From: Bacteroidota bacterium
GTDB taxonomy: Bacteria; Bacteroidota; Bacteroidia; Flavobacteriales_D; Crocinitomicaceae
Length of the DNA: 64,000 nt
Assembly (NCBI GenBank): GCA_006226425.1
Contig: SBGX01000031.1
Location: forward strand, 62,001 to 126,000
Reading direction: 5' to 3'
Shown here: positions 41,948-55,234 of the stretch, piece after piece
Position numbering within the stretch: position 1 is the stretch's first letter
Layout of the letters: each line of letters opens with the position of its first letter
Position numbers and translations under genes: made by a program
The notes under the pieces: model-generated
Told to the model about the DNA's origin: nothing
The model's database searches: none
Seen by the model: only the letters and a program-made list of their open reading frames with translations

Positions 41948-43348
41948 ATGTTTGAAGAGAACGAAGAAGAATTCGACCGCGATTTCAGAGAGGACATTGA
42001 GCGTTTTGAACGCTCTTTACAGGGAGAGGAATTCGGATTCATGGATGCCGACCGCATTGAAATGTTGGTTGACCATTACCTGATCCATAGTTCGTACTCC
42101 AAAGCTGCTACCTGCTGTGATATCGGAATCAGTCAATTTCCTTTTAACCACATTTTCCTGCTTCGTAAAGCACAGGCACTTTCCGCCCAGGGTAAACTGA
42201 AAGAAGCATTGGGTCTGCTGAATGAGTATGAGCAAACATCTGTGATCGGTTGTGAATTCAATCTCACCAAGGCTTCCATTTTTAGTCAGCTAAAAGATTC
42301 AAAACGAGCGATTCGATATTTTCGGGAGGCACTGAATGATTCCGACATTGAGGACAAGGATGAAATTTACCTGGACCTGGCCATGGAATATCAGCAACAG
42401 GGAGACTATCAATCCGCCATCCAGGTTTTGCAGGAGGCAATCCATCAAAATCCGAAGAACGAAGGGGCTATTTACGAACTGGCCTATTGCTACGATCATA
42501 CCAAAGAAATCGAAAAAGCCATCAAATGCTATTCCGACTTCATTGATGAAAACCCCTATTCGTTCACGGCATGGTACAATCTGGGAAATGCCTATTCCAA
42601 GGAGGAAAATTATGAAAAGGCGATCTGGGCTTACGATTACTGCATCGTGATCAATGAAAGTTTCTCTCCCGCTTATTTCAATCTGGGGAATGCTTGTCTT
42701 TCACTCGAGCGTTACCAAACGGCCATCGAATACTTTGAAAAGTGTATGGAACTTGACGGAGAAGATGGTCTGGCCCTCTGCTATATCGGCGAATGTCAGG
42801 AACAATTGGGAAATCTGGAACTCGCCCGGCATTACTACTTGAGAAGCATTGAATTCATCCCGGAACTTCCGGAAGCCTGGCTAGGGCTGGGAATCGTCAA
42901 GGATTTGGAAGGCCAGACAGAAGATGCGATTCAATTGATCCGAAAAGCCATTGACTTCGAACCAACGAACGGAAGCTTCAGACATGTCCTGGCAGGAGCT
43001 TATGAAAAGTTAGAACTCCTGGACGAAGCTGAAGAAGCTTATTTACTCGCTATCGAACTCGATCCCGAAAATGAAGATATCTTCACTGATTACGTTGAGT
43101 TTCTTTCCGAACAAAATTCATTAATTGACGCACTTCACTTTACTGAAAAAAGTGAATTCCCTGAAAGCATGGAATTTGTTAAGAATTTGTGCCGTGTCAA
43201 CATTTTATGGCAGCTCAACCGAAAAGAAGAAGCATTGAGCACCCTTATTTACTGCATTTCGGAAGATGAAAAAAGAGCCAAACACCTATTTACTCTTTAC
43301 CCTGAGCTTCAAAACGAAAGTAAAATAGTAAATTTGTTCGCCAACTAA
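41948..43348 (+). CDS. Tetratricopeptide repeat protein
   Basis: A 466-residue protein made almost wholly of TPR helices. Clear repeats include YLDLAMEYQQQGDYQSAIQV near residue 137, AIYELAYCYDHTKEIEKAI near 175, AWYNLGNAYSKEENYEKAIW near 210, AYFNLGNACLSLERYQTAIE near 243 and AWLGLGIVKDLEGQTEDAI near 312, about ten in all. It has no signal peptide, so it should be a cytoplasmic scaffold. The N-terminus is very acidic. It starts a run with the phosphosulfolactate-synthase-like and WD40 genes (9 and 3 bases apart), which suggests a shared function. Confidence 0.9.
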   Translation: MFEENEEEFDRDFREDIERFERSLQGEEFGFMDADRIEMLVDHYLIHSSYSKAATCCDIGISQFPFNHIFLLRKAQALSAQGKLKEALGLLNEYEQTSVIGCEFNLTKASIFSQLKDSKRAIRYFREALNDSDIEDKDEIYLDLAMEYQQQGDYQSAIQVLQEAIHQNPKNEGAIYELAYCYDHTKEIEKAIKCYSDFIDENPYSFTAWYNLGNAYSKEENYEKAIWAYDYCIVINESFSPAYFNLGNACLSLERYQTAIEYFEKCMELDGEDGLALCYIGECQEQLGNLELARHYYLRSIEFIPELPEAWLGLGIVKDLEGQTEDAIQLIRKAIDFEPTNGSFRHVLAGAYEKLELLDEAEEAYLLAIELDPENEDIFTDYVEFLSEQNSLIDALHFTEKSEFPESMEFVKNLCRVNILWQLNRKEEALSTLIYCISEDEKRAKHLFTLYPELQNESKIVNLFAN

Positions 43349-43357
43349 AGACATAAC

Positions 43358-44179
43358 ATGAATTTTGATCTTCCATATATACCGGAACGAGCCGAAAAAC
43401 CACGATCCAAAGGAGTCACCATGATGATGGACAAAGGACTGGGAATACGTGAAGCAGAGCACTTCATTGAGGCCAGTGGACACCTGACGGACGTAGTAAA
43501 ATTTGGATTTGGGACCTCCTTCGTTACCAAAAACCTAAAAGAAAAGATCAAACTCTATCAAAGCCATGGAATTCGTCCCTACTTTGGAGGAACACTATTT
43601 GAAGCTTTTTATGCTCGCGGTAAATTCAATGATTATTTAAGAACTTTGGATGAGTACGGATTGGATCTGGCTGAAATTTCAGATGGTTCCATCATCATCA
43701 ATCACGAGGAAAAATGTGAGTTGATCAACCGAATGTCCAAAGACCGTACGGTTTTGTCAGAGGTTGGTTCCAAAGATAGCGGGATTCTTATTAGCCCGGG
43801 AAGATGGATCAAAATGATGACTTCCGAACTCGAGGCAGGTTCCTGGAAGGTGATTGCTGAGGGACGTGAATCAGGAAACGTTGGGGTCTTCAGACCCAAT
43901 GGAACGGCCCATACTCTACTCATTAACAAGATCATCGCCAAGGTCAAGCCGGAAGATATTTTGTGGGAAGCCCCTCAGAAAAATCAACAGGTTTGGTTTA
44001 TTAAGCTATTCGGAGCAAATGTGAATTTAGGAAACATTGCACCGAACGAAATCATTCCTTTGGAATGTTTGAGACTTGGATTGCGGGGTGATACTTTCTT
44101 TGAATTTCTTCCACAAGACTACGCTGAACGACTGAAACAGGTGGCCAGTGATGATGAAGTAGAAGACGACGACGAATAA
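43358..44179 (+). CDS. Phosphosulfolactate synthase-like protein (ComA family)
   Basis: A 273-residue TIM-barrel protein that I recognise as the ComA family, which adds sulfite to phosphoenolpyruvate to give phosphosulfolactate. Signatures are SKGVTMMMDKGLGIREAEHFIE near residue 18, DVVKFGFGTSFVT near 47, RPYFGGTLFEAFYARGKF near 75, LDLAEISDGSIIINHEEK near 105, and WKVIAEGRESGNVGVFRPNG near 165. It ends in an acidic tail (EVEDDDE). In methanogens the enzyme opens coenzyme M synthesis and in Bacillus it makes spore sulfolactate; the role here is open. No ComB/ComC is adjacent. The barrel sits between two repeat-protein genes. Confidence 0.85.
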   Translation: MNFDLPYIPERAEKPRSKGVTMMMDKGLGIREAEHFIEASGHLTDVVKFGFGTSFVTKNLKEKIKLYQSHGIRPYFGGTLFEAFYARGKFNDYLRTLDEYGLDLAEISDGSIIINHEEKCELINRMSKDRTVLSEVGSKDSGILISPGRWIKMMTSELEAGSWKVIAEGRESGNVGVFRPNGTAHTLLINKIIAKVKPEDILWEAPQKNQQVWFIKLFGANVNLGNIAPNEIIPLECLRLGLRGDTFFEFLPQDYAERLKQVASDDEVEDDDE

Positions 44180-44182
44180 AGC

Positions 44183-45073
44183 ATGTTATTTCGCCCTCAA
44201 GTTGAATTAAAAGGGCATTCCGGTGCTGTCTATACCCTTTGTGGTTCTTTTCCTTTTATTTACTCTGGAGCGGCTGACCGTTTCGTTGCCAGGTGGAATC
44301 TGGAATCCGGCCAACAGGAGGCATTCAGCATTCGCTGCGATGCCAGCATCTATGGATTGGTTGAAATTACTGACAGAAATCTCCTTTGTATGGGACTGAG
44401 TAATGGCTCTTTGCACATTATCGACCAGTTCAAAAAACAGGAAATCAGACATCTAAAAGCCCACCAGTCCGCGGTCTTTTCCATCCTTGAAAACCAGGAA
44501 TTAAAGCAGCTATACACCACAGATATGGAAGGAAACCTGGCCATCTGGAGTCTTCCGGATTTTAAATTAGAACTCTTCCTTCCTTTGGATACAGGAAAAA
44601 TCAGAAGTCTCAAGTTACACGATCAAAAGTTGTTCCTGGCTGGTCAGGATGGTTTTATTCGGATCTTTGATATGAACAATTTGAATGAACTGACGAACTG
44701 GAGGGCACATGAGGGAGGAGTCAATGAACTTCTTATTGACCATGAGGGAAAAATCATCAGTGCCGGAAAAGATGCCCACATCCGAATATGGGAAAAACAC
44801 GAAACTAACTACCGCCTGTTCAAGGAAATTCCAGCGCACCATTACGCCATCTATAGTCTCTGCTTCCTGAATGACGGGAAATACATGGCCTCAGCCAGTC
44901 GGGACAAATCCATTAAAATCTGGGACTGTGATTCCTGGAAGGTACTCCAAAAGATGGAACGAAAAGACGAAGGACACCAACATTCCGTCAATTTCCTGCT
45001 GAAAACATCAGAAAATTCTTTCGTTAGTGCCGGTGATGACGGCCGGATCATCTATTGGAAGTCACCGGCCTGA
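44183..45073 (+). CDS. WD40 repeat beta-propeller protein
   Basis: A 296-residue protein with about seven WD40 blades and no signal peptide. Blade endings of the W/x-D type are visible: FVARWNLES near residue 35, GNLAIWSLPDF near 118, GFIRIFDMNN near 155, AHIRIWEKHE near 200, KSIKIWDCDSW near 245 and GRIIYWKSPA at the C-terminus; GH dipeptides precede several (LKGHSGAVY). Propellers of this sort are protein-binding platforms. It follows the ComA-like gene by 3 bases and ends the trio. The partner could be the TPR protein (inference). Confidence 0.92.
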   Translation: MLFRPQVELKGHSGAVYTLCGSFPFIYSGAADRFVARWNLESGQQEAFSIRCDASIYGLVEITDRNLLCMGLSNGSLHIIDQFKKQEIRHLKAHQSAVFSILENQELKQLYTTDMEGNLAIWSLPDFKLELFLPLDTGKIRSLKLHDQKLFLAGQDGFIRIFDMNNLNELTNWRAHEGGVNELLIDHEGKIISAGKDAHIRIWEKHETNYRLFKEIPAHHYAIYSLCFLNDGKYMASASRDKSIKIWDCDSWKVLQKMERKDEGHQHSVNFLLKTSENSFVSAGDDGRIIYWKSPA

Positions 45074-45547: not shown

Positions 45548-48466
45548 ATGAGCGTTCTATTCCCCTTTCGAAAAGTTCCACTATTATTATCCGCTTCTCT
45601 ACTATATTTTTCTATGAGCTATGGTCAGGGATACATCTGGTCCAATCACATTGGCCACGGAGTTGTTGGGGAACTAAACATTGACGTTGGCAAATCCATT
45701 GTTGTCATGGAAGACGGAACTCACTATGTTGCAGGTGCTTCTGATGGTGGTTTTTTGGGAAAATTCGACGCCGATGGCAATGAAATTTGGTCGAGCCACA
45801 TGAGTAGTGTCACCAATGGACTCATCGATATCAGTCAAATCGTAGCCGATGCTGATGGCAATGTCTACATGGTCGGAATTTTTGAACTAAGTATTAAATT
45901 CAAAACAGGATCCGGAACCATTGAATTGACTGGGTCAGGACAAGATCAGGAAGATATTTTTGTAGCTAAATTCAATCCACAGGGTAAAGCCCTTTGGGCA
46001 CGCGGGGCAGTTGGAAGCGGAAGATTTTCGGCCTACCAATTAGCACTTGACAAGGACAATAATGTGTATGTTCCCATGAATATCAAAGATATCGCCAATA
46101 TCAATGCGGGCGGGGGAAACACAGTGAACGTCGATGGGATTGATCATGACATTTTTCTCGTCAAATACGACTCAGACGGGAACTACCTTTCGAATACCCA
46201 ATTTGCCAGTTTCAATTCCAAAAATTGTCGGGTCATTGAAATTGATGATTTGGGGCGAATTTACCTGGGAGGACGTGCATTTACCTTTGACATCGATCCC
46301 GGTCCTGATCAGGTAAATGTGAACAACTGCTTCCTTGCGAGGTTTTCAAGTGACATGACATTGGACTGGGCTTTTAGTCTGAGCGGCTCCTGGACAGCAC
46401 CCTTTGACATCGAAATCGGATCTGATTATAGCATGTATGTCGGTGGGACCTCCGGAACAACCTACTTCGACTATGAAAATGCCGCCGGACTTGTTTCTCC
46501 CCGGGGAAGCACAGATGCCTTTGTTGCCAAATACGATTCTCTGGGTAAATTCTTATGGGTTGCCGGAATGGGAGGTGACGACCAAAGCAGTGAAGAAAGT
46601 GTGCGATCTCTCAAAGTTGATCAACATGGTCAAGTCGCTTGTATTGGAACTTTTTCTGCAGATAATTTTTCTGATTTTGATCCGGGTCCTGACACCCTGC
46701 AATTACCTGGCAAGGGCCTGAACGATATTTTCTACGTGACACTTGACAGCCTGGGACAACTTGCCTGGGCGGGAGCCATCGGAGCATCAAACAGCGATCA
46801 GGGCTATTCAATTGGAATCGATCAATATGAAAACATCTATGGAACAGGTGCTTTTCTATTCACAGCAGACTTTGACCTGGGAGCCGATACCAAAAACATG
46901 ACAGCCAACGGTTCCGCAGACCTCTTTATCTCCAAATATTGTCTCCATCCTCCACGAATGGCAGATAGCATAGCTGGTGGAAACGAAGCTTGTCGAGGTT
47001 TTAGCAAAACATTCTCTACCATTGGTTTATTCAATGCAGATAGCTACGAATGGACAGTGCCAGCAGGTGCTACGATTTCTTCCGGACAAGGAAGCAACAC
47101 GATTACTGTTCTTTTTGGAAGTTCTGCTCAGGACGGTGTAATCACTGTCAAGGGAATCAATCCTTGTGGATCTGGCAAAGCCTATGAATTAGCTGTTACC
47201 ATTATCAATTCCCCTCCTATTCAACCTAGTAATCTGAGTGGAACATTTGAAGTTTGTCAGGGAACCGCCGGTATTGAATTTCAAGTTGATCCAATGACTG
47301 ATATTTTGGGCTATGAGTGGACACTTCCGGATGGAGCTAATATCACTCAGGGCGATAACAGCAATCACATCACCGTTCACTTCACGAAACAGGCAATCAG
47401 TGGAAACGTTTCGGTAGCGGCCATCAATGGTTGCGGAACGGGAACTCCTATTTCTCAAAGTATCCAAATCAATCCGCTCCCGGTTCAAACTGTACTTGTC
47501 TCGATGCCAGATCGCGTTTGTGCCGGAGATACGGTTAACGTCACCTGCGAAAGTGAATTCGCGGATACCTACACCTGGTCCATCCCAGGAGCCTGGGTCA
47601 TTGTCGGAAGTGATAATCAGGCCAGTGCTCAAATTGTGATGAACGAAAGTCCCGCACTTCAGTTCTCCGTCAAAGGAACAAACAGTTGTGGAGATGGGAC
47701 GAGTAAGACCTTTCCTGTATTTATGGATACTGAAATTCCTGGCAAGCCAGGAGAAATTGTTGGTACCGAGAGCATTTGTGCACCGGATGGTACCTTTGGC
47801 TATTCGATCAATGCCGTAAGCGGAGCTTCTTCTTATCAATGGAACTTGCCACCGAATACGACACTTGTTTCTGGTGGAGGAACCTCCGTGCAAATTGATT
47901 ACCCTGAAAATGCGGAAAGTGGAACAATCGAAGTAAGTGCCTCCAATGCTTGCGGGGCCAGTGAAATTTCAAGCATCCAGATCAACGTTGGGCAGAACCC
48001 GGTCACTCCGGTGATCACGCAGCAGGGAGATAGTTTATTGGTGGATACAGAACTCCATGTTCAATGGTATGATCAAAATGGAGAAATTGTTGGGGCTACT
48101 CTCCCCTACTACATTCCTGCGTTTAATGGATTCTACTACTGTATCGTCGACGACGGTACCTGCTTTTCAGAGGCTTCCAATGAGATTGAAATCACCACTC
48201 TTTCTATTGATCAGTTAAACAACATTTCATTTAGGATTGCCCCGAACCCGGCTTCTGATGAATGTATTGTCCAGCTTAAAAGTGTCAATAAACACACTCG
48301 GATTAATTTACGAGACATCAGTGGAAAGAGCGTTTCCGTTCCGATCGAACAAATTGGGAATTCCACTTACCGCTTGTCATTGCAGCATTTGCGGAGAGGA
48401 ATTTACCTCATCGAATTGAACGAATCAGGCAGAATTCTAATAAGTCAAAAACTGATTAAGCTATAA
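45548..48466 (+). CDS. Large secreted PKD-type protein with type IX secretion sorting tail
   Basis: A 972-residue exported protein. A signal peptide (LLLSASLLYFSMSYGQ, to about residue 27) is followed by about 430 residues of SBBP-like beta-propeller repeats with GNVYMVG, GRIYLGGRA, DAFVAKYDSLGKFLWV and ENIYGTGAF elements, which are often found in surface adhesins. Four or five PKD/Ig-like repeats follow (residues about 470-800), each with a Cys pair (SIAGGNEACRG, FEVCQGTAG, DRVCAGDTV, ESICAPDG). The C-terminus (IAPNPASDECIVQL to LKRGIYLIEL-like LRRGIYLIELNESG, SQKLIKL) is a type A sorting domain. It should be on or outside the cell surface. Confidence 0.9.
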   Translation: MSVLFPFRKVPLLLSASLLYFSMSYGQGYIWSNHIGHGVVGELNIDVGKSIVVMEDGTHYVAGASDGGFLGKFDADGNEIWSSHMSSVTNGLIDISQIVADADGNVYMVGIFELSIKFKTGSGTIELTGSGQDQEDIFVAKFNPQGKALWARGAVGSGRFSAYQLALDKDNNVYVPMNIKDIANINAGGGNTVNVDGIDHDIFLVKYDSDGNYLSNTQFASFNSKNCRVIEIDDLGRIYLGGRAFTFDIDPGPDQVNVNNCFLARFSSDMTLDWAFSLSGSWTAPFDIEIGSDYSMYVGGTSGTTYFDYENAAGLVSPRGSTDAFVAKYDSLGKFLWVAGMGGDDQSSEESVRSLKVDQHGQVACIGTFSADNFSDFDPGPDTLQLPGKGLNDIFYVTLDSLGQLAWAGAIGASNSDQGYSIGIDQYENIYGTGAFLFTADFDLGADTKNMTANGSADLFISKYCLHPPRMADSIAGGNEACRGFSKTFSTIGLFNADSYEWTVPAGATISSGQGSNTITVLFGSSAQDGVITVKGINPCGSGKAYELAVTIINSPPIQPSNLSGTFEVCQGTAGIEFQVDPMTDILGYEWTLPDGANITQGDNSNHITVHFTKQAISGNVSVAAINGCGTGTPISQSIQINPLPVQTVLVSMPDRVCAGDTVNVTCESEFADTYTWSIPGAWVIVGSDNQASAQIVMNESPALQFSVKGTNSCGDGTSKTFPVFMDTEIPGKPGEIVGTESICAPDGTFGYSINAVSGASSYQWNLPPNTTLVSGGGTSVQIDYPENAESGTIEVSASNACGASEISSIQINVGQNPVTPVITQQGDSLLVDTELHVQWYDQNGEIVGATLPYYIPAFNGFYYCIVDDGTCFSEASNEIEITTLSIDQLNNISFRIAPNPASDECIVQLKSVNKHTRINLRDISGKSVSVPIEQIGNSTYRLSLQHLRRGIYLIELNESGRILISQKLIKL

Positions 48467-54424: not shown

Positions 54425-55234
54425 TTAAGAGCTAAAAACCAACTCTTTAGACAACATAAAAAGCGCCATTGCCAGGATGAAATACGCAAAATAGCGCTTC
54501 AACTGATCTTGCTTGAGGCCCTTCGAAAGACGGGCCCCTAGCAAAATTCCAATGATCATCAATGCCGAGAAAGGCAAAATAAGTCCCCAATCCATCGAAA
54601 CAGTTCCAATTGACCCCAGGAAGCCAAATGCTGTATTCAAAGCGATGATACTTAAGGAAGTTCCGATCGCCTGACGTACTTCAACAGCCGCAAAAAACAG
54701 TAAAGCAGGTACGATTAGGAAACCTCCTCCAGCCCCTAGAAATCCGGTCACAAAGCCCATAAAAACTCCCTGAAGTACCAATGGTCCCCAGGTAATCTTT
54801 GTCGATTTTTGCTCCACTTCCCCTGGAGTTTTCTTTTTGCGCAGCATGAAGAAAGCAGCTAAAAGCATCAACAGAGCAAACAAGACCAAAATTAAGATGG
54901 AACGTGTTAGTTCGAAACTTCCAAGATCAAGGATTTTCTCCGGAACAATAGGAAAAAGATACCTACGAGTTAACAAAACTGAAACGATCGAAGGAATTCC
55001 AAACCAAAGCAGTAATTCCATTCGCACATTGCCCATCCGAAAATGACTAATGCTCCCGACCAAACTTGATCCGGCGATCATGAACAGGCTATACACTACT
55101 GCTACAGATGCATCAATCCCAACTAAATAAACCAATATGGGTAAAATGAGGATGGACCCGCCCCCTCCTAATGTGCCCAGGACCAGACCTGTTACCAAAG
55201 CCAGTCCATAAGCAATTGCTAAATAAATTTCCAT
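54425..55234 (-). CDS. Sulfite exporter TauE/SafE family protein
   Basis: A 269-residue membrane protein with about eight helices. Each half begins with a Gly-rich loop: GLVLGTLGGGGSILILPILVYLVGID near residues 17-42 and GFVTGFLGAGGGFLIVPALLFFAAVE near 165-190. This duplicated pattern is the TauE/SafE signature. Substrates are often sulfonates, sulfite or sulfoacetate, but many members remain unassigned. The stop converges with the lipoprotein. It lies 3 bases from the thioredoxin-like gene, so the two are cotranscribed. Confidence 0.9.
   Translation of the reverse strand: MEIYLAIAYGLALVTGLVLGTLGGGGSILILPILVYLVGIDASVAVVYSLFMIAGSSLVGSISHFRMGNVRMELLLWFGIPSIVSVLLTRRYLFPIVPEKILDLGSFELTRSILILVLFALLMLLAAFFMLRKKKTPGEVEQKSTKITWGPLVLQGVFMGFVTGFLGAGGGFLIVPALLFFAAVEVRQAIGTSLSIIALNTAFGFLGSIGTVSMDWGLILPFSALMIIGILLGARLSKGLKQDQLKRYFAYFILAMALFMLSKELVFSS

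Follow-up and report, generated by a model that had tools for sequence, protein, structure and literature searches.

A canonical ComA in a Crocinitomicaceae genome and a candidate ComA/ComB route to cysteate for sulfonolipid synthesis

The window analysed here, a 64,000-nucleotide stretch of contig SBGX01000031.1 (positions 62,001 to 126,000, forward strand) from a Crocinitomicaceae bacterium of the Bacteroidota (assembly GCA_006226425.1), contains three closely spaced genes on the forward strand. These encode a TPR protein (41948-43348; 466 amino acids), a ComA-like protein (43358-44179; 273 amino acids) and a WD40 beta-propeller protein (44183-45073; 296 amino acids). The TPR and WD40 repeats were recognized by family search, while the middle product scores 305.7 bits against PF02679 (cut-off 25.2). 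The open reading frame coordinates give 9 bases between the TPR and ComA-like genes and 3 bases between the ComA-like and WD40 genes, and thus both the arrangement and the ComA-like label proposed in the initial annotation of this DNA are borne out. Just 3' of the WD40 gene is a forward-strand gene (45548-48466) whose 972-residue product carries the TIGR04183 sorting tail of type IX secretion, along with an SBBP-repeat match below the cut-off. On the reverse strand, some 10 kb from the ComA gene, lies a TauE/SafE-family exporter gene (54425-55234; PF01925, 154 bits), the predicted product of which could transport sulfite or sulfonates.

The middle gene product most closely resembles, among solved structures, ComA of B. 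subtilis (1u83; 174 bits) and of M. jannaschii (1qwg; 170 bits). Over the stretches compared, its identity amounts to 44.4% with the M. jannaschii protein and 40.1% with that of B. subtilis, compared with 43.1% between those two. The window protein matches 71 of the 100 positions at which these two agree, 47 of the 50 residues invariant in the pair and nine copies from other Bacteroidota classes, and all 36 residues invariant among 32 other canonical sequences (the two solved proteins, from M. jannaschii and B. subtilis, and 30 relatives). A structure model of moderate quality (pLDDT 71.8, built from 10 sequences) has 1qwg as its top match (TM 0.76 and 0.82), with 9cm1 and 1u83 in second and third place.

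It could be argued that the window protein has shifted to a different reaction, possibly one like that of HSA32, and is not a phosphosulfolactate synthase, an option that the initial annotation had also raised. Indeed, its score against TIGR03849, the archaeal ComA equivalog model, is 256.3 bits, below the cut-off of 280, and it is thus not filed as an archaeal equivalog; the four other canonical Bacteroidota ComA proteins scanned fall short in the same way (247-267 bits). Drift of this kind, however, is at odds with the retention of all the canonical invariants. A second group of ComA-family paralogues, here termed type-B and including the copy of genome G050, which presumably resemble plant HSA32, shares the PF02679 family with the window protein but separates from canonical ComA in the tree with a support of 100; the five compared keep just 20-21 of the 36 invariants, and one type-B copy scored 94.9 bits against TIGR03849. 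At the positions of D25, K139 and Q211/N226 in the window protein, type-B copies carry Gly, Gln and Phe. The lysine K139, replaced by Gln in type-B, aligns with Lys137 of M. jannaschii ComA, which we take to be catalytic. An HSA32-like role was therefore rejected, and a change to some other reaction appears very unlikely. Judged by its residues, the middle gene encodes a canonical, ordinary ComA-type protein that is probably active as a phosphosulfolactate synthase.

The position of ComA between two genes for repeat proteins, described in the initial annotation as an unusual tie to scaffolds, suggests that the TPR, ComA and WD40 proteins could form a functional scaffolded complex. Such a complex would fit the 9- and 3-base gaps and the conserved TPR-ComA adjacency. 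Each of the 80 named relatives that ranked best among the matches listed has a TPR gene on the upstream side of ComA, at a distance of at most about 310 bases (in L200 the two genes overlap). Within the class of the window a TPR gene is present at most 390 bases upstream in 29 of 35 ComA loci. In contrast, none of the 24 loci from other classes that yielded a row in tblastn, by which neighbours were counted, has a TPR gene upstream of ComA (a 25th locus, L090, the divergent copy of G200, yielded no row). The TPR gene, moreover, does not depend on comA, as a homologue was found in 20 of 20 genomes without ComA and ComB and, within the 1.5-kb flanks seen, adjoins aroE (a shikimate dehydrogenase-type gene) or PopT (PF04018) in 12 of them; PopT is also beside the TPR homologue in one of four genomes with ComB but no ComA.

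The WD40 gene is more narrowly distributed still. It lies within 200 bases downstream of ComA in 27 of the same best 80 listed relatives, all among the 29 nearest, and 1.8-1.9 kb from ComA in two more; the relatives with this neighbour bear the titles Fluviicola, Crocinitomicaceae, Flavobacteriales or other metagenome names. The trio is thus present in many genomes, not this one only. Among the 35 same-class ComA loci, however, only L032, from the same family as the window, has the WD40 neighbour, and beyond the nearest relatives its slot is taken by PopT or VTT-domain genes. The aroE gene is often next in relatives that lack WD40, and is downstream at 28 of the 35 same-class loci. Because TPR homologues keep their aroE or PopT neighbours when comA is missing, the block is probably best written TPR-[ComA]-[PopT/VTT]-aroE, with ComA as an apparently optional element. 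The persistence of TPR homologues without comA, together with the lineage-restricted WD40 gene, led us to set aside a scaffolded system as the main story; the association with repeat scaffolds lacks specificity, and a TPR-ComA-WD40 complex seems very improbable. The link of either neighbour to ComA is probably mostly incidental, and neither has an established role in sulfonate chemistry.

The initial annotation noted that no coenzyme M genes were visible. This holds within the window but not for the genome, which encodes a ComB (PF04029; 256.8 bits) at G000:C1:34358-34996, on the same contig and 27 kb before the window start, and the apparent absence is therefore an effect of the window. In a set of 395 genomes from across the phylum, ComA was detected in 99, ComB in 213 and both in 98, G300 alone having ComA and no ComB match. 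The ComA-positive set includes G019, with a match below the family cut-off, the divergent G200, and three genomes (G050, G058 and G328) in which only type-B-shaped matches, judged by match coordinates, are present. The dependence is one-sided, as 115 of the 395 genomes have ComB alone. The presence of ComB in 98 of 99 genomes with ComA is nevertheless a further observation that a ComA shifted to another reaction would leave unexplained. The ComA, ComB and CFAT (cysteate-fatty acyltransferase) genes are unlinked. Linkage of ComB to sulfonate genes was considered and proved uninformative; its recurrent neighbours at the loci inspected are gcvT, ftsK, S1/P1-nuclease-like and SNF2-helicase genes, joined in the genome of the window by a thiolase gene.

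The same genome encodes a 424-residue CFAT, which scores 579 bits against SulA (7u7h), with 66% identity, and 551 bits against 28eh, titled ‘Cysteate-C-fatty acyltransferase', versus 238 bits against the serine palmitoyltransferase Spt (3a2b). Lys281 is reported by Radka et al. (PMC9304779) to separate SulA from Spt, and the equivalent position holds Lys in all 20 CFATs aligned, that of the window's genome included, and Ala in Spt. By these comparisons the enzyme is a cysteate-fatty acyltransferase of the SulA/CapB type.

A review (PMC10191378) describes CapA or an archaeal-type synthase as the supplier of cysteate for sulfonolipids. The window's genome shares with the CapA-CapB capnine pathway of Capnocytophaga and relatives, as that review presents it, a SulA-type condensing enzyme with Lys281, but differs in having ComA and ComB and no protein over the CapA cut-off. 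Its two PALP matches at E≤1e-10 comprise a weak one and a full-length protein resembling cystathionine beta-synthase (CBS), and it is the latter that scores best against the CapA model NF053679, with 465.6 bits (cut-off 600). The archaeal-type cysteate synthase that the review assigns to Alistipes and Odoribacter is likewise a source of cysteate other than CapA; in contrast to that system, TIGR03844 gave no match at E≤1e-15 in the window's genome, and none over the cut-off in 38 genomes. A predicted ComA, ComB and CFAT are therefore present in a genome where no protein was found to exceed the CapA cut-off or that of TIGR03844.

The CBS-like protein might itself make cysteate, since its 466 bits are not far below the weaker scores of CapA-like proteins. 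Of six ComA-minus genomes inspected, five have a CapA-like PALP gene directly 5' of CFAT, and the five proteins score 661, 649, 632, 546 (G012) and 509 (G037) against the CapA model, the last two being below the curated cut-off of 600. The CBS-like protein also scores 484.4 bits against the cystathionine beta-synthase model, below its cut-off of 510, and CBS-like proteins occur as second matches in CapA-plus genomes too.

The distribution of these genes was compared across the phylum. CFAT, called at E≤1e-85, was found in 139 of the 395 genomes and CapA-like proteins in 49, the latter called at E≤1e-134, a cut that we placed between short CapA-like and longer CBS-like matches; the CapA-like label rests on this cut, and two of the five members scanned are below the curated CapA cut-off. 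Among the 139 genomes with CFAT, 81 have only ComA, 49 only CapA, none both and nine neither. Within the class of the window (98 genomes), ComA is present in 35 genomes, CapA-like proteins in 49 and both in none, CFAT accompanying every one of the 35 and the 49; seven further CFAT-plus genomes have neither route, and seven genomes without CFAT lack both ComA and CapA. In other classes ComA is found in 46 of 48 CFAT-plus genomes. When only CapA-minus genomes are counted, 81 have ComA and CFAT, 18 ComA alone, 9 CFAT alone and 238 neither.

Kinship constrains how these counts can be read, as Fisher tests on the co-occurrence counts ignore it. Mapped onto a phylogeny of 53 TPR proteins, representing 53 of the 98 same-class genomes, CapA requires two changes and ComA five. 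Four independent pairs differ in ComA, with CapA opposite in one or two and never in the same direction, which is not significant. Independent evolutionary switches between ComA and CapA are thus few, and the pattern could be a coincidence of few events. Two groups of genomes also depart from it. In the 18 genomes with ComA but without CFAT, 13 of which contain a match that is canonical in type as judged from profile coordinates (five of these 13 were residue-checked), ComA must serve something else, or CFAT has diverged. The nine CFAT-plus genomes without ComA or CapA include three of genus g19 that keep ComB. Four members of family f7 (G064, G158, G162 and G178) have CFAT and no ComA, ComB or CapA at the cut used; these possibly have another cysteate source.

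A ComC-like dehydrogenase shows a related distribution. Strong matches to Ldh_2 (PF02615, the ComC family), defined by a post hoc cut of at least 390 bits, are present in 32 of 35 ComA-plus genomes of the window's class versus 0 of 63 ComA-minus genomes, seven of which have weaker PF02615 matches (310-344 bits). No PF02615 match was obtained in the remaining three ComA-plus genomes of the class, which are that of the window and those of its family- and order-mate (G041 and G045). In genus g19, two ComA-plus genomes (G099 and G214) have the strong Ldh_2 and three ComA-minus genomes do not; these three (G261, G363 and G379) keep ComB and CFAT and have no CapA. In other classes just 2 of 18 ComA-plus genomes tested have Ldh_2 at 390 bits or more, and the ComA-Ldh_2 pattern is therefore confined to the class of the window.

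These observations lead us to lean towards the view that ComA and ComB feed cysteate and sulfonolipid synthesis in the window's genome, standing in for CapA. In such a route the ComA of the window would join PEP and sulfite to give phosphosulfolactate, which ComB, encoded elsewhere in the genome, would dephosphorylate to sulfolactate. Sulfolactate would then be oxidized to sulfopyruvate, a step that the ComC-like Ldh_2 may catalyse in most same-class families and a dehydrogenase other than Ldh_2 in the window's order, and transamination of sulfopyruvate would yield cysteate. The CFAT/SulA-type enzyme would condense cysteate with a fatty acyl thioester to form 3-ketocapnine, the start of the sulfonolipid, with ComA and ComB taking the place of the phosphoserine-dependent cysteate synthase CapA. 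We infer from sequence that the enzymes are catalytically active as described, that a dehydrogenase and an aminotransferase act in between and that the product flows into lipid. Indirect support for the earlier suggestion of a ComA product destined for a sulfonolipid precursor comes from ComB, CFAT, the mutual exclusion of ComA and CapA and the Ldh_2 pattern; the case rests on the fit of these several parts, not on one test. The proposed route resembles the coenzyme M pathway of methanogens and the spore sulfolactate system of B. subtilis in the canonical ComA residues, in ComB and, for most same-class relatives, in the ComC-family Ldh_2. The window's genome differs from the ComA-ComB-ComC system in its unlinked genes, its Bacteroidota host, the lack of an Ldh_2 match and a TIGR03849 score below the cut-off.

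An alternative that we regard as possible, though distinctly less probable, is that sulfolactate is itself the end product of ComA and ComB, either a solute or an exported metabolite, with cysteate derived from the CBS-like protein, from cysteine oxidation or from uptake. This would account for the absence of Ldh_2 matches from the genome of the window and from its two order-mates and the scarcity of Ldh_2 in other classes, for the 18 ComA-plus genomes without CFAT, for the CapA-model score of the CBS-like protein (466 bits) and for the exporter gene at 54425-55234. It leaves unexplained, however, why, of the 91 genomes in the class that have CFAT, 84 carry just one of the two genes ComA and CapA and not one carries both, why the seven same-class genomes without CFAT lack the two together, and why Ldh_2 follows ComA within the class; the CBS-like proteins, furthermore, are not peculiar to genomes without CapA. 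The weak points of a ComA/ComB supply of cysteate are the same missing Ldh_2 in the window's order and in most other-class ComA-plus genomes, the chance that the CBS-like protein might do the work of CapA, the 18 genomes with ComA but no CFAT and the nine with CFAT but neither route.

What is unusual here, as far as gene content can reveal, is not the presence of scaffold genes, but that ComA and ComB, accompanied in most same-class families by a ComC-like enzyme, occupy the place that CapA has in related families with the same acyltransferase. A broader version of the proposal, for which the evidence tips the balance by very little, is that a third, ComA/ComB-based cysteate route underlies sulfonolipid synthesis in many families of Bacteroidota, belonging to the window's class and to at least one other, and stands in for CapA and the archaeal-type synthase; in Crocinitomicaceae-like bacteria and most other-class ComA-plus genomes it would operate through a not yet known sulfolactate dehydrogenase. 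The proposal addresses the cysteate source of bacteria that have the acyltransferase but not CapA. If correct, sulfonolipid potential could be predicted in many more Bacteroidota, and part of the coenzyme M pathway would serve lipids. Sulfonolipids are reported to be necessary for gliding motility (PMC10191378) and to trigger choanoflagellate development (PMC3463246). In the open-licence literature no paper contained ‘phosphosulfolactate' together with ‘sulfonolipid', or ‘sulfolactate' together with ‘capnine'; titles and abstract starts revealed no earlier proposal of a ComA/ComB route to sulfonolipids, which may nonetheless stand in papers on CapA, Chryseobacterium sulfonolipids or Flavobacterium CFAT.

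Two further settings of ComA-family genes were observed. In family f24 (loci L072, L073, L075-L078, L080 and L082) ComA is located amid glycogen-type genes, with a starch-synthase-domain gene downstream (at L082 this match is from tblastn only) and GlgB or 4-alpha-glucanotransferase genes upstream. At five loci from other Bacteroidota classes (L074, L079, L081, L088 and L091) a second ComA-family copy lies directly 3' of an MmgE/PrpD gene, with DUF2249 and HTH genes near four of the five. The three of these copies that were residue-checked (L074, L081 and L088) lack the canonical residues, and the MmgE/PrpD-adjoining genes are a possible bacterial HSA32-like locus.
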